NCBI GenBank assembly: GCA_000961805.1
Contig: LADV01000079.1
Location: 1 to 8,150 of the forward strand
Reading direction: 5' to 3'
DNA length: 8,150 nt
DNA from: Peptococcaceae bacterium BRH_c23
Lineage (GTDB): Bacteria; Bacillota_B; Desulfitobacteriia; Desulfitobacteriales; Desulfitobacteriaceae
Position numbers and translations under genes: made by a program
In this document: piece by piece, positions 492-8,150 of the stretch
Numbering within the stretch: the first letter of the stretch is position 1
Layout of the letters: every line of letters begins with the position of its first letter
The notes under the pieces: generated by a model
The model's database searches: none
Told to the model about the DNA's origin: nothing
Seen by the model: the letters and a program-made list of their open reading frames with translations, nothing else

Positions 492-1220
492 AACCTAGAA
501 AAAGCATGGTTAAAAGCGTTGCTTAGCCAACCAGGAATAGAAATGACTTTAAGTGACGAGACTTTGGCCCAACTACAAACCATTCTTCGTGACATTGATA
601 CACCGATTAAAAAAGATTATCTGGAAATGACAAATATCATTCAGCTGCCGGAGATTTCTCAGCCGGATATATACCAAGATAATTTTAGATTGCTCTTAGA
701 AGCGTTAATTCAAGAAAAGCCTATTCGCTATGATAACCAAGATAGAAAAGGGTATGTTCATAAGAATAAACTGGCCATGCCGGTTAGCCTTGAATATTCA
801 ATAAGAGACGGTAGATTTCGAATATCTATGTTTTCCCTTGATGATAACAGGCCGATTATGGCCAACCTTTTTACACTGTCAAACCTAAGGATCGTTAACG
901 AGAAGGTCCCCATAGATAGAGAAACCGCGAGGGCATTACTTTTCGAAAAATACTCCCAAGAGCCCATAGTCTTAGAAGTTACGGACAAAAAGGGAGCGAT
1001 GGAGAGAAGTTTTATGTGCTTTTCCGGTATGGAGAGATCAGCAAAACATTTAGGAAATAATAAATACGAGTTACAACTTCATTACTACCTATTTGAAGAA
1101 GAAAATTTAATACGGAGTATTATTTCTTTAGGACCCTATGTCAAAGTAACATCCCCTCAAAGAATCGCTGATGAAATAATAAGCCGAGTAAGAAAATCAT
1201 TAGAGTTTGCAACAAGATGA
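492..1220 (+). CDS. WYL-domain protein, 5' part removed by the inserted element
   Basis: WYL-domain proteins are usually transcription regulators that sense nucleic acids or other ligands. Protein-like sequence (NLEKAWLKALLSQPG) begins right at the transposon end, so the gene has lost its start and any N-terminal DNA-binding part. Counting from the TTG at 519, a linker helix (10-65) is followed by a WYL-type beta domain (about 65-127), in which the eponymous motif is degenerate (FRI at 100-102). A C-terminal WCX-like domain (about 149-228) includes ISLGPYVKVTSPQRI. The only in-frame starts left are TTG 519, with no visible ribosome site, and ATG 543, with AGGA six bases upstream, so a shortened protein could still be made. 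It ends 90 bases or so before the leader of the RNA-repair operon and may once have regulated it, which is inference. Confidence 0.75.
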   Translation, partial: NLEKAWLKALLSQPGIEMTLSDETLAQLQTILRDIDTPIKKDYLEMTNIIQLPEISQPDIYQDNFRLLLEALIQEKPIRYDNQDRKGYVHKNKLAMPVSLEYSIRDGRFRISMFSLDDNRPIMANLFTLSNLRIVNEKVPIDRETARALLFEKYSQEPIVLEVTDKKGAMERSFMCFSGMERSAKHLGNNKYELQLHYYLFEEENLIRSIISLGPYVKVTSPQRIADEIISRVRKSLEFATR

Positions 1221-1236: not shown

Positions 1237-1241
1237 GTCTT

Positions 1242-1308
1242 TTGACCGGCAAATTATCCCGGTATACTAAAAATGTTCCTAATTCCTTTACATAGATTTC
1301 AGTATAAT
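1242..1308 (+). promoter_or_regulatory. Candidate promoters of the structured leader and operon
   Basis: Two weak candidates lie after the WYL terminator. One is TTGACC (1242-1247) with TATACT (1263-1268), with a short 15-base spacer. The other is a perfect TATAAT at 1303-1308 without a good -35 box at the right distance. The second would start RNA near 1314, just ahead of the structured region. No sigma-54 -24/-12 signature is seen, unlike RtcR-controlled rtc operons of Proteobacteria. Which is used cannot be told. Confidence 0.4.
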
Positions 1309-1369
1309 CTTACGGTGCCTGACTTCTTAAGATTTAGGTATGCCGGTATCGGAATGTGGAGCTCAAGAA

Positions 1370-1434
1370 CCGAGGAACGGAGGTTCGATTCCTCCATTAC
1401 CGTAAGGTAATTAGCTCAGTGGTAGAGCCTTCGG
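1370..1434 (+). ncRNA. Circularly permuted tRNA-like module
   Basis: Read 5' to 3', the parts of a tRNA appear in rotated order. Anticodon-stem 3' strand CCGAG (1370-1374) is followed by a four-base variable loop. The T arm is GGAGG/CCTCC with loop TTCGATT (1379-1395). Acceptor 3' strand ATTACC (1396-1401), GNRA loop GTAA and acceptor 5' strand GGTAAT (1406-1411) come next. TA stands for positions 8-9, then the D arm GCTC/GAGC with loop AGTGGTA (1414-1428), and last the anticodon-stem 5' strand TTCGG (1430-1434). U8-A14, G15-C48 and G18G19 equivalents are all present. The chain opens where the anticodon loop would be. This is the topology known for the tRNA-like module of bacterial Y RNA (YrlA). 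No Ro protein gene is visible in the window. Confidence 0.8.
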
Positions 1435-1503
1435 CAAGGGGTTCGAATCCCCATCAGATTTAAGGATCTGAAGCTATGGTTAGCTCTCAATGGTCACCTG
1501 AAG
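1429..1503 (+). ncRNA. Second, degenerate permuted tRNA-like module
   Basis: A second T arm (GGGG/CCCC, loop TTCGAAT, 1438-1452) is followed by an acceptor-like hairpin TCAGAT/ATCTGA with loop TTAAGG (1454-1471). A D-like arm GCT/AGC with GG in its loop (1473-1484) completes the same rotated order as the first module. The fit is weaker: the T stem has four pairs, the capping loop is not GNRA, and one linker base is missing. CTTCGG (1429-1434) can pair with CTGAAG (1498-1503) to close it, but the same strand closes the first module, so the two may compete. Confidence 0.5.
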
Positions 1504-1762
1504 ATTGAATCTTTAGAGAGAATCCCATGTTTAGGCAGTACATCTGCAGAGACACCGGGACTTAAGCCATGAAGTGCGCGGATACCGGATAAAGCGAACC
1601 TAAACTTGTCTGAAGTAGTTCACGCCAAGGCTATGTCTGAGGCATAAACAATTAATCATGACCAAGATAGGTAACTCTGTCCTTAAGCAGTACTCCGCTA
1701 AGGTTCCGCAGGGATTCTCGAAAAAGATTCAGCAAAAATTGTTAAGAAAAGGATGGATTAAA

Positions 1763-2872
1763 ATGAAGGTAAGCATTAAGAATGATGAAAGAGGTTTATT
1801 ATTCAAAGACGGTAACTATACAAAATGCTTAAAACCTGGGAAACATTACCTTAATCCATTGCTTAAATATCAGGTTGTGACATCAGATGTTAATAATACC
1901 TTCGAGACGAACGGTAAAAACATCAATCTGTTTCTTGGAGATCATGAACTTTTGCAGGAACTCACAGTAATCGATATCCAGGACTATGAGATTGCTATCC
2001 ATTTTGAAGATAAGAAGCTTACTGAGGTGCTAAAGCCAGGAAAATATGCATTCTGGAACGTCATGAAAAAGCATGAGTTTATCATCATAGATATACGAAA
2101 TCCCCAAGTCCAAGGGGATATAGATCCTTCAGTCTACAGTAGCCCGAAGCTGGCCGGTTTTTTGAGTTACTGTGAAGTTGCAAGCTATGAAAAAGGGATT
2201 CTCTATTACGACAATATAATTCAAAGGATATTGGAACCCGGCAGATATTACTTCTGGAAGAGTCCAATACATATTGCCGTGAAAAATGTAGATCTAAGAC
2301 AGCAGCAGATAGATATGACGGGTCAAGAAATTATGACGGAAGACAAGATCACCTTAAGATTGAATTTTGTCTGTCAGTACAAAATTATCGATCCACTAAA
2401 AGTCATTGAAGTAAAGTCCTTTGAGGAACAGCTTTATATCATTTTACAGCTCATCTTAAGAGAATATATAGGATCATTAAAGTTAGACGATCTTCTTTTA
2501 AAAAAGCAAGAAGTAGGGAACTACATCCTTGAAAAATTCCAAGAGAAAAGCTCCGGTTTTGGTGTGGACTTTATTTTTGTTGGGGTGAAAGATATTATTC
2601 TGCCAGGGGATATTAAAGAAATTCTCAATACCGTGTTGATTGCGGAAAAGAAGGCTCAAGCCAACGTCATCACCCGCAGAGAGGAAGTTGCTTCCACCAG
2701 AAGCCTCTTAAATACGGCAAAGCTGATGGAGGAAAACCAGACTCTTTATCGGTTAAAGGAACTGGAGTTCTTAGAAAAAATCTGTGATAAGATCGGAAAT
2801 ATATCCCTTACAGGTGGAGGCAGCTTGCTTGAACAGCTGAACAATTTGCTCTCGGCTAAGTCAACGAATTAA
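1763..2872 (+). CDS. Slipin/stomatin-like SPFH protein of an RNA-repair operon
   Basis: The 369-residue product has an SPFH core at about 170-310, marked by VDLRQQQID, GQEIMTEDKITLRLNF and QYKIIDP, and then a charged helical, probably coiled-coil tail (295-345). No N-terminal membrane segment is seen, unlike classic stomatins, so it is probably cytosolic or peripheral. Ahead of the core are three copies of a short beta module ending in L.PG.Y.FW-like sequence (about 9-32, 75-99, 142-166). Slipins of this kind recur next to rtcB in bacterial RNA-repair loci, but their task is not known. ATG 1763 is chosen because AAGGA stands about nine bases upstream and the protein then begins like its relatives. 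An in-frame ATG at 1658 would add 35 residues but has no ribosome site and lies in the structured leader. First gene of the operon. Confidence 0.85.
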   Translation: MKVSIKNDERGLLFKDGNYTKCLKPGKHYLNPLLKYQVVTSDVNNTFETNGKNINLFLGDHELLQELTVIDIQDYEIAIHFEDKKLTEVLKPGKYAFWNVMKKHEFIIIDIRNPQVQGDIDPSVYSSPKLAGFLSYCEVASYEKGILYYDNIIQRILEPGRYYFWKSPIHIAVKNVDLRQQQIDMTGQEIMTEDKITLRLNFVCQYKIIDPLKVIEVKSFEEQLYIILQLILREYIGSLKLDDLLLKKQEVGNYILEKFQEKSSGFGVDFIFVGVKDIILPGDIKEILNTVLIAEKKAQANVITRREEVASTRSLLNTAKLMEENQTLYRLKELEFLEKICDKIGNISLTGGGSLLEQLNNLLSAKSTN

Positions 2873-2967: not shown

Positions 2968-4548
2968 ATGAGGGAATATCTTGATAAATACTCTGCACAT
3001 CAGACTCTAATCAAACCCCTAAAAATGTTCGGATTTCCGAAAGTTAAAGATAAACTAGCTGCCTTGCATTGGTTAAGCAAAGATATCGATCCAAAGGATA
3101 TTGAATACGTCTTTCCTCTAATTTTCGTAAAAAATACAACGCTTGCTTTAACTGCTGCCCAAATAACTGCAGGAATCATGAGTAAAATTGGGGGTAAGGA
3201 CTGGAGCCGCATCTACGATCAGGTTAAATACACTAGGATAGATGAGAAAAGCCTGGTTAGCCTTTTAGAGTTTGAGACCGATATCTCCGTTCACCTGTTA
3301 GGTATTGCGTCACTCAACAGTAATGGCTATGTTCGGGAGAAGGCTTTGAAATTAATATCTGGTGTAAAAAGCCCAAGCGCTGTTCCATATATTCTTTTAA
3401 GGCTCAATGATTGGGTTGTATCTGTAAGAAATCTGGCGGAACATATTATTAAAAACATGTTCATTCCTGACAACATAGATCTTTTTATCAATCACTTTGA
3501 TTTGATTAATAAATTACAAGACTCGGTTCGGGTGGATCTTAACCAAATAAAAATGCAAGTTGAAGATTTTCTCAAAGATGATTCCTTTAAAGATATAGTT
3601 AAGAGGAAGCTAAAACATCCTCAGGTTAAGACACGGCTGTTTTGCTATCAGCTATTGAAGGATAGGATTGTCAATGATGAAACCATCATAATCTCTGCTC
3701 TTCAAGATAAATCATTTGAAGTTAGGATGTGGCTTGTGGGAGCAATAAAATCTCTTGAACCTCAAGCCCGAGATGCGATTATTGAAAAATTGCTTCAGGA
3801 CAAATCCTCTAAAGTTAAAACGGCAGTACTAAGGGAACATGAAGATGTTGTCTGCCTGAATTTTAGGGGAATTATAGAGATGCTTTTGGTAGATGAGTCT
3901 GCTTCCGTGCGAGATGACGCTAGATTTATCGTAAAAAAGCATTCAATGGTCACAGATATTCCAGAATTCTATAGACTCAAAATTCTAAAGAACCCTTTAC
4001 CGGGAGCCATTGTTGGGCTAGGGGAAACAGGTGGCCAAAGAGACTTTGATATTGTTTGTGGTTTCAAAACAAATGAAGAACCTAAAATGAGACTAGCTTC
4101 CCTGATAGCGATGTGGCAACTATCGAAAGTGGATACCGTTGGTTTTGTATTGGACGCTTTAAATTCTGATCTGCCAAAGATTAAAAAAACAGCAAAACGT
4201 CTTCTCAAAAAAGCAAAAATGCCAGAAATACTTTCTGTAATGAAAGAGAAATTGAAGAGCGAAGATCTTAATACACGAATTTTTGCACTTCAAATAATTT
4301 ATAGTTACGGAGGGTGGCAGGCTCTTCTAGCTATTCTTTATGCCATCTCCAGAGAGCAAGAGCCGGTTTTGAGTGAAGCAAGAAATATATTAAATAATTG
4401 GTTGCCTAAATCTACAAGTTTATACTCTAAGCCAGACAGAGATACAGAGAAAGAGATTATCAATCTTGATGAGACTATCCGCCTAAAAGGATTAATCAGC
4501 GAGAATGTCATAAAAGAATTACAATTTGTTCTTGCCACTAGAAGATAG
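2968..4548 (+). CDS. HEAT-repeat protein of the RNA-repair operon
   Basis: This 526-residue protein is almost wholly alpha-helical repeats of the HEAT kind. Clear units are around 118-160 (VREKALKLI then VRNLAEHII), about 210-310 (VKTRLFCYQLL, VRMWLVGAI, VKTAVLREH) and about 370-450 (MRLASLIAMWQL, IKKTAKRLLKKA). No enzyme motif, signal peptide or membrane segment is seen. HEAT solenoids usually bind proteins or RNA, so an adaptor for the ribosome, the slipin or the leader RNA is plausible, but no function can be assigned. The ATG at 2968 is preferred over an ATG 60 bases upstream because GAAGGTGA lies just before it, and the upstream start falls inside a hairpin. The next gene, prfH, starts 49 bases after its stop. 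Confidence 0.8.
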   Translation: MREYLDKYSAHQTLIKPLKMFGFPKVKDKLAALHWLSKDIDPKDIEYVFPLIFVKNTTLALTAAQITAGIMSKIGGKDWSRIYDQVKYTRIDEKSLVSLLEFETDISVHLLGIASLNSNGYVREKALKLISGVKSPSAVPYILLRLNDWVVSVRNLAEHIIKNMFIPDNIDLFINHFDLINKLQDSVRVDLNQIKMQVEDFLKDDSFKDIVKRKLKHPQVKTRLFCYQLLKDRIVNDETIIISALQDKSFEVRMWLVGAIKSLEPQARDAIIEKLLQDKSSKVKTAVLREHEDVVCLNFRGIIEMLLVDESASVRDDARFIVKKHSMVTDIPEFYRLKILKNPLPGAIVGLGETGGQRDFDIVCGFKTNEEPKMRLASLIAMWQLSKVDTVGFVLDALNSDLPKIKKTAKRLLKKAKMPEILSVMKEKLKSEDLNTRIFALQIIYSYGGWQALLAILYAISREQEPVLSEARNILNNWLPKSTSLYSKPDRDTEKEIINLDETIRLKGLISENVIKELQFVLATRR

Positions 4549-4597: not shown

Positions 4598-5203
4598 ATG
4601 TGGATGCAAATTAGCTCAGGGAAAGGTCCTGATGAATGTGAACTGGCAGTAGGTCTTTTCCTGAAAACAATATTGAATGAAAATAAAACTACAAGAGTCA
4701 TTGATTCAGTACCCGGACACTATAACGGTACCTATAAATCTATTCTTCTATCCATCGATCCGAAGGAATTTAAGGGTGATACTGACAGCACGAAAGGTAC
4801 AATCCTCTGGATTTGCCCAAGTCCATACAGGCCTAATCATCGAAGAAAGAATTGGTTTATTAATATTGAAGTATATCAGTCGGCTGAAAGGTTCCACTTT
4901 ACAGAAAAAGATGTAAAGATTGTCGCCATGAGAAGTTCCGGACCGGGTGGCCAAAATGTAAATAAAGTGGAAACGGCAGTCAGAGCAGTTCACATACCTA
5001 CTGGGTTAACGGTTACAGCAGATGAGGAACGATCACAATATATGAATAAAAAGCTGGCACTTGCCCGCTTGGCAAACCTTATTGAGGCGAAAAATGAAGA
5101 TAATAACAGTAGCCATAAAGAATCTATGTGGAGGCAGCACAACCTGCTTACCAGAGGAAACCCAATGAGAATTTATGAAGGCAAGGAGTTTAAACTAATA
5201 TAA
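4598..5203 (+). CDS. prfH: Peptide chain release factor homologue PrfH
   Basis: PrfH resembles bacterial release factors but lacks the stop-codon-reading domain. It hydrolyses peptidyl-tRNA on ribosomes whose decoding centre has been cut, so that the paired RtcB can repair the 16S rRNA. The 201-residue length is normal for the family. The catalytic GGQ is at 117-119 within SSGPGGQNVNKVETAV. The family signature SPYRPNHRRKNWF lies at 75-87, and a basic C-terminal tail follows. The ATG at 4598 has a perfect AAGGAGGT seven bases upstream; a longer frame from 4526 would overlap the HEAT gene and lacks such a site. rtcB begins 68 bases downstream, the usual partner arrangement. Confidence 0.93.
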   Translation: MWMQISSGKGPDECELAVGLFLKTILNENKTTRVIDSVPGHYNGTYKSILLSIDPKEFKGDTDSTKGTILWICPSPYRPNHRRKNWFINIEVYQSAERFHFTEKDVKIVAMRSSGPGGQNVNKVETAVRAVHIPTGLTVTADEERSQYMNKKLALARLANLIEAKNEDNNSSHKESMWRQHNLLTRGNPMRIYEGKEFKLI

Positions 5204-5271: not shown

Positions 5272-6477
5272 ATGATGCAAATAGAAGGGAAATATAATAT
5301 GGCGAAGGTGTATACGGATATTCTGGAAGAAGGGGCTGCTTCACAGATTGAAACCCTTTGTAATCAGGATTTTGTAAAAGAAAGCAAAATTAGGGTCATG
5401 CCGGATGTGCACGCCGGAGCTGGTTGCACAATTGGAACCACGATGACCATTACGAATAAAGTAGTCCCTAACTTAGTGGGGGTAGATATCGGTTGCGGTA
5501 TGGAAACTATCTCAATCAGCAACAAACGATTGGAACTGCAAAAGCTGGATAAGTTGATTTATGAGAATATACCGTCAGGTTTTGAGGTGCGGAAGACACC
5601 CCATCGGTATAACGAACAAATTGATTTAACAGGGCTTCGTTGTCCTAAAGCAGTGCAATTGGACAGAGCAGAAAAAAGTATTGGGACATTGGGTGGTGGC
5701 AATCATTTTATTGAGGTTAATAAGGATGAGGCGGGCAGCTTATATGTTGTAGTTCATTCAGGGAGCCGACACTTAGGACTTGAGGTGGCAAAATATTATC
5801 AAGACGCTGGGTATAAGCAGATAAACCATAATGACAAATCAGATATGGAGGCACTCGTTGTCCGTTTAAAGTCTGAAGGCCGTGATAAGGAAATCCAGAA
5901 TGCCTTGAAGGAATTTAAAAATCAGGTGCTGACCGAAATTCCGTTTCCTCTCGCCTATGTAACCGGGAGCCTGTTTGAGGACTATATTCATGATATGAAA
6001 ATAGTCCAGCAGTTCGCAGTGCTCAACCGTAAAGCCATGATTACTGAGATCGTAAAAGGAATGAAATTAGACGTAGTGGAGCAGTTCACTACGACTCATA
6101 ATTACATTGACACCGACACAATGATCTTACGGAAAGGCGCAGTGTCCGCAAAGAAAGGGGAAAAGCTTTTAATTCCCATCAATATGAGGGATGGTAGCCT
6201 CATCTGTGTTGGCAAAGGCAATGAGGATTGGAACTGTTCTGCTCCCCATGGTGCAGGCAGGCTCATGAGCAGGACCAAGGCCAAACAAAGTTTTACCGTT
6301 TCAGACTTTAAAAAACAGATGAAGGAGGTCTATACGACTTCTGTCAGTAAAGAAACCTTGGATGAGTGTCCAATGGCTTATAAGACAATGGATGACATCG
6401 TAAAGCATATTGGTCCGACAGCGGATATTATGAAAGTTATTCAGCCGATTTATAACTTTAAGGCGGGAGAAAAGTAA
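5272..6477 (+). CDS. rtcB: RNA ligase RtcB (RNA 3'-terminal phosphate ligase, PrfH-linked type)
   Basis: RtcB joins RNA 3'-phosphate or 2',3'-cyclic phosphate ends to 5'-OH ends, using GTP and Mn2+. The 401-residue protein has all the key residues: D72 and C75 in VGVDIGCGME, N144-H145 in GGGNHFIEV, H162 in HSGSRHLG, H276 in TTHNYID, and H326 in APHGAGRLMSR, the equivalent of the guanylated histidine (H337 of E. coli). It is about as long as the forms paired with PrfH, whose known target is rRNA cut in the decoding centre. The family start (M..I.GKYN.AKV) favours the ATG at 5272 or 5275, with a weak GGTGG site. A frame from 5215 would add 19 atypical residues. Last gene of the operon. Confidence 0.93.
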   Translation: MMQIEGKYNMAKVYTDILEEGAASQIETLCNQDFVKESKIRVMPDVHAGAGCTIGTTMTITNKVVPNLVGVDIGCGMETISISNKRLELQKLDKLIYENIPSGFEVRKTPHRYNEQIDLTGLRCPKAVQLDRAEKSIGTLGGGNHFIEVNKDEAGSLYVVVHSGSRHLGLEVAKYYQDAGYKQINHNDKSDMEALVVRLKSEGRDKEIQNALKEFKNQVLTEIPFPLAYVTGSLFEDYIHDMKIVQQFAVLNRKAMITEIVKGMKLDVVEQFTTTHNYIDTDTMILRKGAVSAKKGEKLLIPINMRDGSLICVGKGNEDWNCSAPHGAGRLMSRTKAKQSFTVSDFKKQMKEVYTTSVSKETLDECPMAYKTMDDIVKHIGPTADIMKVIQPIYNFKAGEK

Positions 6478-6608: not shown

Positions 6609-6641
6609 TTATTTGTAACAGAAAAAGGCTTGCAGGGCGGT

Positions 6642-6670
6642 CGGCATTCCTCCGAAGGGAGGTGATGCCG
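6642..6670 (+). promoter_or_regulatory. Hairpin that hides the toxin ribosome binding site
   Basis: CGGCAT (6642-6647) pairs with ATGCCG (6665-6670), and CCTCC (6649-6653) pairs with GGAGG (6658-6662), around a GAAG loop. The whole Shine-Dalgarno and the first base of the GTG start are thereby masked. In addition GGCGGTC (6636-6642) matches GACCGCC (6753-6759) just after the coding region, a 5'-3' contact typical of type I toxin mRNAs. Confidence 0.75.
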
Positions 6671-6753
6671 TGGAAGTATACCAGACTTTGATGCTGATGA
6701 TTTCATTTGCAACATTGGTAGTGTTAATACTTTCATTCCATAAACGGAAATAG
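6670..6753 (+). CDS. Holin-like type I toxin, 27 residues
   Basis: The tiny product, beginning EVYQTLMLMISFATL after the GTG-encoded first residue, is one hydrophobic helix followed by a basic tail (HKRK). This is the layout of the putative holin-like toxin family (Hol_Tox) of Firmicutes, relatives of TxpA/BsrG-type toxins that damage the membrane when over-made. GTG is used as start, with GGAGGTGA four bases upstream inside a hairpin. The antitoxin is expected to be an antisense RNA from the opposite strand overlapping the 3' end, for which a promoter is visible at 6862-6890. The gene is a separate unit from the rtcB operon, with its own promoter. Confidence 0.8.
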   Translation: MEVYQTLMLMISFATLVVLILSFHKRK

Positions 6754-6817
6754 ACCGCCTCACAGCAAAGGTTCGGTCTATTCCGCACTTTTGAAGCCGT
6801 CCGCTCTTTAAGCGGCT
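6751..6817 (+). terminator. Hairpins at the 3' end of the toxin mRNA
   Basis: The toxin stop codon lies in the stem TAGACCG/CGGTCTA (6751-6757 with 6774-6780), which adds CCT/AGG inside. A second stem, AGCCG/CGGCT or alternatively CCGCT/AGCGG (6795-6817), is followed by GTTATATT. Together they probably end and stabilise the toxin mRNA. T-runs are modest, so the exact end is unclear. Confidence 0.5.
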
Positions 6818-6856
6818 GTTATATTGGAGTCATGCGAGTAACATGACTCCTCTTTG
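6751..6856 (-). ncRNA. Antisense RNA, likely antitoxin of the holin-like toxin
   Basis: Transcription leftward from the promoter at 6862-6890 would first make a perfect nine-pair hairpin (6826-6834 with 6842-6850), then a CCGCT/AGCGG hairpin (6801-6815), and reach the toxin stop region. TAGACCG/CGGTCTA (6751-6757 with 6774-6780) could end it, though its T-run is weak. Read-through would stop at the 6575-6596 hairpin after covering the whole toxin. The 3' end is therefore uncertain. The RNA is inferred from promoter, hairpins and locus type. Confidence 0.55.
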
Positions 6857-6890: not shown

Positions 6891-6944
6891 TATTGATAGT
6901 GTTAGACAATACTTATAAAATTTGAAGCTAGATCATTGGCTAAG

Positions 6945-7059
6945 TACAAATCAGGCGTGGAGACCATAGAAAGTCCGGGACTGATTTCTTACGTGAAATA
7001 AGCGGCCAGCCCGATAATCGTATAATTGTACGATTATTGGATTGGCCGCTTATTTCACG
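6945..7059 (+). repeat. Palindromic repeat, copy 1 (two hairpins)
   Basis: The unit starts TACAAATCAGG and holds two hairpins. The first is AAATCAG/CTGATTT (6948-6954 with 6981-6987). The second is a very long one: 17 perfect pairs (6992-7008 with 7043-7059), a 2x2 mismatch, then 12 more pairs (7011-7022 with 7029-7040) around a TAATTG loop. A second copy in the same orientation starts at 8075. TACAAATC recurs just after the unit (7063-7070). A small non-autonomous mobile element, or a dispersed structured RNA, is likely; the class is not recognised. Confidence 0.75.
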
Positions 7060-7234
7060 GTATACAAATCCAGCAATTGAGAAGGCTCGTATTGTTGTCA
7101 AATCAGAAGCTTCTGAAAGTAGACTCGTTTTTATGCCTCTTAAATATGAGCCATTAAAATGATAATTCTAGTATTATAATCTAGGGCTACCGGTATTGTT
7201 GATAAAATTTAGCCGAATAAGACAGTAATCTTAA
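7060..7234. other. Spacer with no supported gene
   Basis: No gene with a start codon and ribosome site is seen. A plus-strand frame ending TGA 7160-7162 reads like a protein tail (KARIVVKSEASESRLVFM), but it has no plausible start and runs back through the palindromic repeat; it may be a decayed gene end or chance. CTAG..CTAG flanks ATTATAAT around 7168-7184. Confidence 0.4.
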
Positions 7235-7722: not shown

Positions 7723-8049
7723 GTGGATTACGGCATAATTGGAGAACGAATAAAACAGGAACGATTAGATAAAGGATTGACTCAGGAAGTGCTAGCTGAA
7801 AAAGCGAATATTTCCGCCTCATTTCTTGGGCAAATTGAGCGGGGAGAACGAAAATTAAGCCTTGTAACTTTAATTGAAATTGCTAAAGTTTTAGGGGCCA
7901 GTTTAGATTACTTGGTTAGTGATTCCTCACCGAGAGAAAATCCAGAACTTGATGAATTGATTTACCTACTGCGCGATCACAGCCGGCAAGAAATAAGAAT
8001 GATAACAGATATTTCTAAAACGGTTTTTAAATATTGTGATGTTAAATAA
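7723..8049 (+). CDS. XRE-family transcriptional regulator
   Basis: The 108-residue protein has a classic five-helix Cro/C1-type DNA-binding domain at about 7-62: IGERIKQERLDKGLTQEVLA, ISASFLGQIERGERKLSL and LIEIAKVLGASLDYL. A short C-terminal helical part (75-105), probably for dimerising, follows. It likely represses itself and the divergent recombinase-like gene through the dyads between them. GTG at 7723 is chosen because AAAGGGG lies about nine bases upstream and the protein then begins (VDYGIIGERI) like relatives; a TTG at 7714 overlaps the ribosome site. It lies between two copies of a palindromic repeat. Confidence 0.88.
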   Translation: MDYGIIGERIKQERLDKGLTQEVLAEKANISASFLGQIERGERKLSLVTLIEIAKVLGASLDYLVSDSSPRENPELDELIYLLRDHSRQEIRMITDISKTVFKYCDVK

Positions 8050-8074
8050 GCGTTCGTATAAAAAATTAATCAAA

Positions 8075-8150
8075 TACAAATCAGGCCCGAATACCCATAA
8101 AAGTCCAGAACTGATTACTTAAGCGAAATAAGCGGCCTGTGCAATCGTAC
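8075..8150 (+). repeat. Palindromic repeat, copy 2, cut by the window edge
   Basis: It aligns with copy 1 from TACAAATCAGG onward. It keeps the first hairpin (AATCAG/CTGATT, 8079-8084 with 8111-8116), the inner AAGTCC, and the start of the long stem (GAAATAAGCGGCC at 8124-8136, then AATCGTAC at the edge). Internal sequence differs while the pairing arms are kept. It begins 26 bases after the XRE stop codon and could also serve as its terminator. Confidence 0.7.

Follow-up and report, generated by a model that had tools for sequence, protein, structure and literature searches.

Circularly permuted tRNA mimicry has been described in bacterial Y RNAs. YrlA adopts such a fold (PDB code: 6CU1; PMC11472068, in part), and the accessible text of PMC8394870 presents Salmonella YrlA as an operon-encoded permuted tRNA mimic within an RNA-repair operon, with the stem of the Y RNA binding Rsr and its tRNA-like part binding PNPase. 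On the protein side, RFH/PrfH and RtcB are reported to form a ribosome-damage repair unit (PMC6514570, in part). Also, in Anabaena, TrcR acts as the common repressor of a slipin operon, of rtcB, and of a tRNA operon (PMC10272220, in part), which is a further tie of slipin to translation stress.

The window, that is, the whole stretch of 8,150 nucleotides analyzed here, contains a slipin gene preceded by a conserved leader, in the following gene context:

519..1220, forward strand: upstream WYL/WCX-type regulator (PADLOC WYL 3.6e-7; Pfam WCX weak, below its cut-off)
1763..2872, forward strand: slipin (SPFH/Band 7), the gene constantly paired with the leader RNA (Pfam Band_7 4e-30)
2968..4548, forward strand: HEAT-repeat protein (Pfam HEAT_2 2.7e-11)
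4598..5203, forward strand: PrfH release factor (NCBIfam TIGR03072 224.6 bits, cut-off 166.65)
5272..6477, forward strand: RtcB-family RNA ligase (Pfam RtcB 3.5e-64)

Slipin homologues align over their full length from the start at 1763, and a terminator-like hairpin lies behind the WYL/WCX gene at 1202-1234 (one found in the scan against 0.6 expected). The association with RNA-repair genes claimed in the initial annotation holds in the window, with PrfH and RtcB behind slipin and the HEAT-repeat gene. As in the RtcR-controlled Salmonella rsr-yrlBA-rtcBA operon, a tRNA-mimic RNA is co-encoded with RNA-repair enzymes; however, here rsr is lacking, the RNA precedes slipin, a WYL-type regulator lies upstream, and no rtcR-like gene is found among the annotated ORFs of the window. 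Likewise, the last two operon genes correspond to the PrfH-RtcB unit, but in this case the pair stands behind slipin, a HEAT-repeat gene, and a tRNA-mimic leader, an arrangement that the accessible part of PMC6514570 does not mention.

Farther downstream, positions 6616-6849 of the forward strand match Rfam BsrG (58.9 bits, cut-off 55) and contain a small ORF, seen by eye near 6670-6752, for a short hydrophobic peptide; this region resembles an RNA of a type I toxin-antitoxin system. Two similar sequence copies (6943-7060, with an inverted repeat, and 8073-8150), both ending in AAATAAGCGGCC, flank a small helix-turn-helix regulator gene (7735-8049) and are possibly a mobile or repeated element.

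The permuted module and the leader RNA around it

Leader alignments delimit a conserved RNA of about 450 nt, from about 1290 to about 1735 of the window, composed in order of a two-hairpin 5' domain, a permuted module (module 1), a degenerate permuted module 2, and a 3' domain that ends about 30 nt upstream of the slipin start. The 65-nt element of the initial annotation is therefore not discrete but part of this larger RNA, whose surrounding domains and second module had been missed. Its features are:

1240..1268, forward strand: probable promoter of the leader, with a -10 element TATACT (1263-1268) and, as -35 options, TTTTGA (1240-1245, spacer of 17 nt) or TTGACC (1242-1247, spacer of 15)
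1290..1348, forward strand: 5' domain, two hairpins (model R2 44.6 bits, covariation)
1370..1434, forward strand: module 1, circularly permuted tRNA mimic (fold, covariation, sub-cut-off Rfam YrlA match)
1370-1373/1431-1434 and 1374-1375/1429-1430: open-ended anticodon-type stem of module 1, 6 pairs in the fold
1379-1383/1391-1395: T stem of module 1, loop TTCGATT
1396-1401/1406-1411: acceptor stem of module 1, 6 pairs, GTAA cap
1412-1413: U8 and A9 equivalents of module 1
1414-1417/1425-1428: D stem of module 1, loop AGTGGTA
1378, 1419, and 1421-1422: tertiary-contact equivalents of module 1 (C48, G15, and G18G19, respectively)
1438..1485, forward strand: module 2, second permuted module (alignment with L002, L003, and L009), with T arm 1438-1452, acceptor hairpin 1454-1471, and small D-type arm 1472-1485
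1486..1505, forward strand: tentative degenerate anticodon-type arm of module 2, poorly paired in the window, at the place of CTCGA-loop-TCGAG in L002, L003, and L009
1506..1735, forward strand: 3' domain (inverted repeat I1, RNAalifold, whole-leader fold)

All the described parts of a circularly permuted tRNA are located in the sequence and fold of 1370-1434. It starts with the 3' strand of the anticodon stem, the variable loop, the T arm, and the acceptor hairpin closed by GTAA, and continues with UA, equivalent to positions 8 and 9, followed by the D arm and finally by the 5' strand of the anticodon stem. Because the helix strands come in this rotated order, the chain is opened at the anticodon loop; the ordinary tRNA order with a free CCA end is absent, since the acceptor strands are joined by GTAA, and a scan of the window with ARAGORN gave no tRNA gene. 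Energy minimization of 1366-1437 returns precisely the permuted cloverleaf, with -25.9 kcal/mol against -16.5 +/- 3.1 for shuffled sequences (z of -3.06; equal or greater stability in 4 of 200 shuffles).

The topology first proposed from the letters is also supported by comparison. Module 1 was aligned in 11 sequences: the window, five Clostridia (L002-L005 and L009), Shimazuella, Seinonella, and Kroppenstedtia (L006, L007, and L051), and two Spirochaetota genomes (L151 and L152). Shimazuella and Kroppenstedtia are Thermoactinomycetaceae, a family to which Seinonella presumably also belongs. Covariation in homologous leaders, the evidence on which the initial annotation had staked its reading beforehand, is present in this alignment (0.455 against 0.175 shuffled and no more than 0.121 when the alignment is slid). 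All helices are kept in 11/11 sequences, with 98.6% of cells paired against 84.7% in shuffled alignments, and 11 of the 20 pairs show double-sided changes. Every helix covaries except the D stem, whose four pairs are uninformative either way because they are invariant. In the end-to-end anticodon stem, double changes occur in 5/5 pairs, the stem of the window itself being one base out of register with respect to the other 10 sequences. Read from the same alignment, position 48 is C in 9/11 and position 15 is G in 11/11.

The nearest Rfam family of module 1 is YrlA (RF02553, 1358-1448), and the likeness suggested initially stands at the level of topology: T arm, acceptor hairpin, and D arm in the same order, the anticodon-side ends joined, and the acceptor capped. 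However, the score of 38.6 bits stays under the cut-off of 69, as do those of L003 (42.7), L006 (32.4), and L168 (28.6), and no RF02553 match at E <= 0.05 is obtained in L049, L151, or L154. Moreover, the 5' and 3' ends of YrlA form a large Rsr-binding stem, whereas the window RNA has 5-6 pairs there and is thus as long as the anticodon stem of a tRNA at this place. YrlA is a discrete RNA of about 90-150 nt that binds PNPase and is a substrate of TruB and DusA; the conserved slipin-leader unit is about 450 nt, with its own 5' and 3' domains, tandem modules, and, in most relatives, a full anticodon arm, and its partner gene is slipin, a Ro gene mostly not being found.

The domains flanking the modules are conserved as structures. 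For the 5' domain, model R2, built from 40 sequences including the window, shows a covariation of 0.375 against 0.193 shuffled. Its second hairpin is closed by CGG..CCG in the window and by CAG..CTG in Paenibacillus, and this closing pair co-switches in 71/71 loci matching the search pattern. In the region of module 2, model R1 (the permuted module) matches at 1432-1520 with 29.9 bits. A long helix, in which 1506-1526 pairs with 1711-1731, closes the 3' domain, which contains the conserved motifs CACCGG..GCGGATACCGG and CCTTAAGCAG.ACTCCGC; its RNAalifold consensus from 32 sequences has 30 pairs, 21 of them with double changes. The fold of the whole window leader has a z of -3.53, with 0/100 shuffles as stable. 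In the Rfam scan, the window leader reaches no family at cut-off, the best match being the sub-cut-off YrlA, and the tRNA model barely passes its cut-off of 29 within the leaders L004, L006, and L008 (29.6-31.4 bits). A long-range pairing of CAGTG (5' domain) with CACTG (3' domain) agrees in 56/71 loci, with clear counterexamples, and pairing of the anticodon loop with the rest of the leader (5.26 against 5.07; 2/300 shuffles) shows a very small excess that relatedness can explain. The identification of the leader RNA as a mimic of the 16S decoding site, judged by eye only, was dropped.

The promoter at 1240-1268 was not called by a generic scan of the window, and TATACT or TATAAT is read at the aligned -10 position of L003, L005, L006, L009, and L010.

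The thrS operator and the T-box also place tRNA-related structure within an mRNA leader. In comparison with these, the slipin leader mimics the tRNA elbow and not an anticodon arm alone, with no terminator found in the window leader, and a T-box was not found by Rfam in 15 slipin leaders or RNA copies. Text searches of open-licence literature gave no description of the ~450-nt slipin RNA. The permuted topology is known from YrlA, and what is apparently new is this RNA and its pairing with slipin in genomes where Ro was mostly not found, together with the tandem modules, the variable-loop openings, and the anticodon arms of changing identity.

Distribution and neighboring genes

A slipin-profile scan of species genomes gave 568 relatives, and the best 80 loci were taken as the set; most are from Paenibacillus, others from Clostridia and Thermoactinomycetaceae, and a few from Spirochaetota. 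Presence of the element at related loci, as anticipated in the initial annotation, is nearly general: among these best 80 of 568, R1 matches 75 (E <= 0.01), R2 76, either model 77, and both 74, the loci without a match being L046 (just 301 bases upstream present), L075, and L081. All the counted matches lie upstream of slipin. For loci of this set outside model building, the fractions are 34/39 for R1 and 37/41 for R2, and of the 23 loci that contributed to neither model, 20 are matched by one or the other. Elsewhere over about 1 Mb, matches occur at L035 4329, L017 5355, and L025 (minus strand), with E of at least 0.09.

As a genome-wide probe, R1 was discarded as unspecific, with matches in 197/197 and 282/291 genomes that we read, by their lengths and spacing, as mainly tandem tRNA gene junctions. 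Slipin adjoins 29 of the 30 inspected Paenibacillaceae R1 loci (at least 60 bits), L114 being without it. R2 was specific, and its matches are rare in random genome draws made with stricter filters: 2/196 (class of G002) and 3/398 (phylum of G006), both counting the known-positive center, and 3/149 (phylum of G011), where the center genome is missed by R2, its locus L036 being matched by R1 only. Six R2-positive genomes were checked, and all have slipin except the spirochaete G968, which has a weak slipin relative only and whose R2 match, the weakest among spirochaetes (22 bits), is probably due to chance. No slipin relative was found in viral contigs or in phages. A Subdoligranulum plasmid match was rejected as a sign of leader conservation, the match lying in slipin coding sequence with query-relative coordinates; the plasmid locus itself has tRNA-like arms before slipin (R1 19.4 bits, E 0.016) and no match in the R2 search.

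Neighbor families were defined by clustering, with Pfam assignment of representatives, and loci cut by contig ends were counted as they stand. Within about 6.5 kb of slipin, RtcB is present in 24/80, RlaP in 13/80, and Hen1 in 4/80 of the best 80 of 568 loci, at least one of the three being nearby in 33/80; WYL-type genes are frequent upstream, one cluster occurring in 29/80. Hence, the element heads a slipin-HEAT-PrfH-RtcB operon in the window, as first described, but elsewhere slipin is accompanied by RtcB, RlaP, Hen1, or none of them. Searched for anywhere in the genome, RtcB was found in 32/38 genomes; the leader RNA thus does not strictly need it, although some of these assemblies may be incomplete. 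As the loci were found via slipin and the Paenibacillaceae check gave 29/30, slipin is the constant gene; the constant partner of the leader RNA is slipin and not RtcB.

TROVE was found in 3/16 and 7/49 genomes with a slipin locus (the second batch covering 49 of 50 loci), a total of 10/65; the other 55/65 gave no Ro/TROVE gene, with the caveat that incomplete assemblies may be among them. Thus, Ro is not the usual partner, and the suggested use without Ro is sustained in this set, outside which the genome of the window itself lies.

In L015 and L027, slipin lies near Hen1 and an 861-residue protein; in L027, this protein matches bacterial Pnkp (194 bits, sub-cut-off, NCBIfam) and Hen1 (Pfam), L015 being assigned by clustering, and a link of slipin to a Pnkp-Hen1 repair system is suggested. 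A family of about 530 residues stands directly behind slipin in L013 (7139-8749) and L043, the L013 protein being without a match in Pfam, NCBIfam, or PADLOC.

tRNA-like sequence also precedes the slipin relatives of E. coli, Citrobacter, Burkholderia, and Photobacterium, where it lies between slipin and a sigma-54-like motif recognized by eye from the consensus. The leaders of E. coli and Citrobacter contain a T arm and a capped acceptor hairpin (R1 21.8 and 18.9 bits), without a clear anticodon arm in E. coli. In Photobacterium, two tandem tRNA-like units of ordinary order are present, one of them tRNA-Met by ARAGORN. The Burkholderia leaders (L156 and L164-L166) have an acceptor-plus-T mini-tRNA and, behind it, a complete tRNA-like unit of ordinary order in which, by eye, a short GAAA- or AAA-type cap replaces the anticodon loop, and the R1 matches (25.5-30.4 bits) span the junction of the two units. 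The tRNA-like part varies greatly, and R2 gives 0/7 matches at E <= 1 in these loci (E. coli, Citrobacter, Photobacterium, and four Burkholderia), which may be distant relatives or convergent. In E. coli (L154) and Citrobacter (L155), slipin and RlaP lie between rluF-DUF3811 and lysC, with rtcR beside them in Citrobacter, where the listed neighbors of slipin include no rsr; this gene order suggests a possible RtcR-controlled repair operon. At coverage of at least 80%, the leader is present in 1623/5426 complete E. coli genomes, and leader plus slipin in 1621/5426.

Among spirochaetes, the element and slipin of G901 are on contigs with overlapping ends, and the element is therefore a slipin leader. 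In G905, a copy comprising the 5' domain (R2 33.3 bits), module 1 (R1 29.7 bits), and a GATACCG motif (L168 4392-4690) is flanked by an alpha/beta-hydrolase gene and an opposite-strand mechanosensitive-channel gene; about 55 nt behind this copy, the scaffold is interrupted by an N gap. The promoter-like site before the copy is at chance level (9 found against 6.2 expected), and neither R1 nor R2 matches the approximately 1.5 kb available upstream of slipin, which is on another contig. This copy is apparently free-standing.

Anticodon arms of the relatives

The module of the Paenibacillus type has the order T arm, acceptor hairpin, D arm (often shrunken), and complete anticodon arm, with a covariation of 0.176 against 0.076 shuffled in 41 sequences. 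Because the anticodon arm is complete and last in order, these modules are mostly opened in the variable loop. The initial proposal of a mimic of a tRNA cut at the anticodon thus stands for the window type, represented by the 11 aligned sequences from Clostridia, Thermoactinomycetaceae, and Spirochaetota, but not for most Paenibacillus-type modules, whose anticodon arm is intact.

A script for arms of 5 pairs and 7-nt loops found one in 83 of 113 slipin loci, giving 68 distinct elements, a few of them wrong hairpins such as T loops; the other 30 loci, left out by it, include the window and some with 6-nt loops. The stem CTCGA/TCGAG is kept in 51/68 elements while the 7-nt loop switches identity. 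By their triplets, we take the loops to correspond to Lys (CTTTTAA), Glu (CTTTCAA/C), Gly (CTTCCAA), Asn (CTGTTAA), Tyr (CTGTAAA), Leu (CTTAAAA), and Gln (CTCTGGA), others being present as well. U33 is present in 57/68. Identity with real tRNA loops, 35 of which were taken from ARAGORN calls on the studied loci (a few calls being doubtful), is observed in 29/68 elements against 15.3 after column shuffling (0/5000), an excess inflated by kinship of the elements; when each loop is counted once, the figure is 7/30 against 3.0, with 62/5000 shuffles as high. The second commonest loop, CTTTCAA (11/68), is absent from the 35 real loops. The evidence for exact tRNA-loop likeness is therefore moderate. 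The surface common to all types is the T arm and acceptor, mostly with the D-loop GG, the anticodon arm being optional.

Possible roles of the slipin-leader RNA

With its acceptor end closed, the RNA cannot be charged and can only present tRNA surfaces. Since the T arm and acceptor are common to all types and the anticodon arm is optional, we favor, with a probability of roughly 0.45, a Ro-independent, Y-RNA-like partner or competitor made with slipin. The leader would encode a large structured RNA showing one or two permuted tRNA mimics, co-transcribed with slipin and working like a bacterial Y RNA without Ro. Its body, formed by the 5' and 3' domains, would hold out the tRNA elbow, accompanied in most species by an anticodon arm, for contact with a protein that handles tRNA when RNA is damaged, the RNA serving the slipin system as partner, scaffold, or competitor. 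The structure of the RNA, its conservation, its tie to slipin, and the frequent absence of Ro are computed here; from these we infer that the RNA is made, acts as RNA, and would bind such a protein. Support is given by the covariation in module 1, the module of the relatives, and both the 5' and 3' domains, by the model matches at 77/80 of the best 80 of 568 loci, by the 55/65 genomes in which TROVE was not found, by the presumed redundancy of an added cis sensor beside RtcR in Citrobacter, by the G905 copy apart from slipin, and by the precedent of Salmonella YrlA. Nonetheless, the Bacillota 3' domain ends just upstream of the slipin ribosome site, as in a cis-acting leader, and the highly variable tRNA-like part and lack of R2 matches in the seven Proteobacterial loci also speak against it, as do the N gap and the chance-level promoter-like site of the G905 copy.

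A cis-acting sensor that controls slipin and the genes behind it is possible, although the less probable explanation. In this case, a tRNA-binding operon product or damaged tRNA would compete for the mimic, or the mimic would be cut, changing access to the slipin ribosome site; the model would be ThrRS, which acts on its own mRNA. The fixed place directly upstream of slipin (77/80 of the best 80 of 568 loci) and the long 3' helix closing just before the ribosome site agree with this. Moreover, regulatory mRNA anticodon mimics are known (PMC6542539, in part), the thrS operator being named among them in the accessible part of PMC8394870. However, a terminator-like site was not found inside the window leader, no sign of pairing between the anticodon loops and the start region was seen (4.31 against 4.35 shuffled in 61 elements), and the G905 copy is apparently free-standing. 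Also, a sensor would presumably be redundant where RtcR is present, as in Citrobacter, because RtcR would already supply induction by tRNA damage (PMC7790460, in part).

It is unlikely that the intact arms of the relatives are bait for anticodon nucleases, cut instead of tRNA and resealed by the ligase or end-healing enzymes of the operon. The conserved U33, the matches to real loops, and the fixed stem with switching loops would fit such a role, as would the repair enzymes near slipin in 33/80 of the best 80 of 568 loci; but the excess is weak on distinct loops and inflated by kinship on all elements, and CTTTCAA is not a real loop in the set. Furthermore, module 1 of the window lacks a closed anticodon loop, the Burkholderia unit ends in a short cap instead, no clear anticodon arm is seen in E. 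coli, and, in the accessible part of PMC7790460, YrlA fragments are unseen under a tRNA-cutting nuclease in Salmonella. That the leader represents functionless decayed or rearranged tRNA genes, or chance likeness, is largely refuted by the strength of the covariation, by conservation of both the 5' and the 3' domain, and by the constant pre-slipin place over very distant species, although tandem tRNA gene junctions share the order of the module, R1 matches nearly every genome, and such junctions are a possible source.

Returning to the slipin-leader RNA as a Y-RNA-like partner or competitor, permuted tRNA mimicry is known from Ro-tied Y RNAs, and here it occurs in a much larger RNA paired with a different protein, slipin. 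A bolder and improbable extension is a new, Ro-independent class of large slipin-associated RNAs whose species-switching anticodon loops are both bait and gauge, a cut reporting damage and repair resealing it; if true, this would be a self-resetting alarm for attack on tRNA. The RNA extends over Bacillota and Spirochaetota, with tRNA-like leaders in some Proteobacterial slipin operons as well, and the role of a Y-like tRNA mimic in RNA repair would thus become testable without Ro, possibly in E. coli too.
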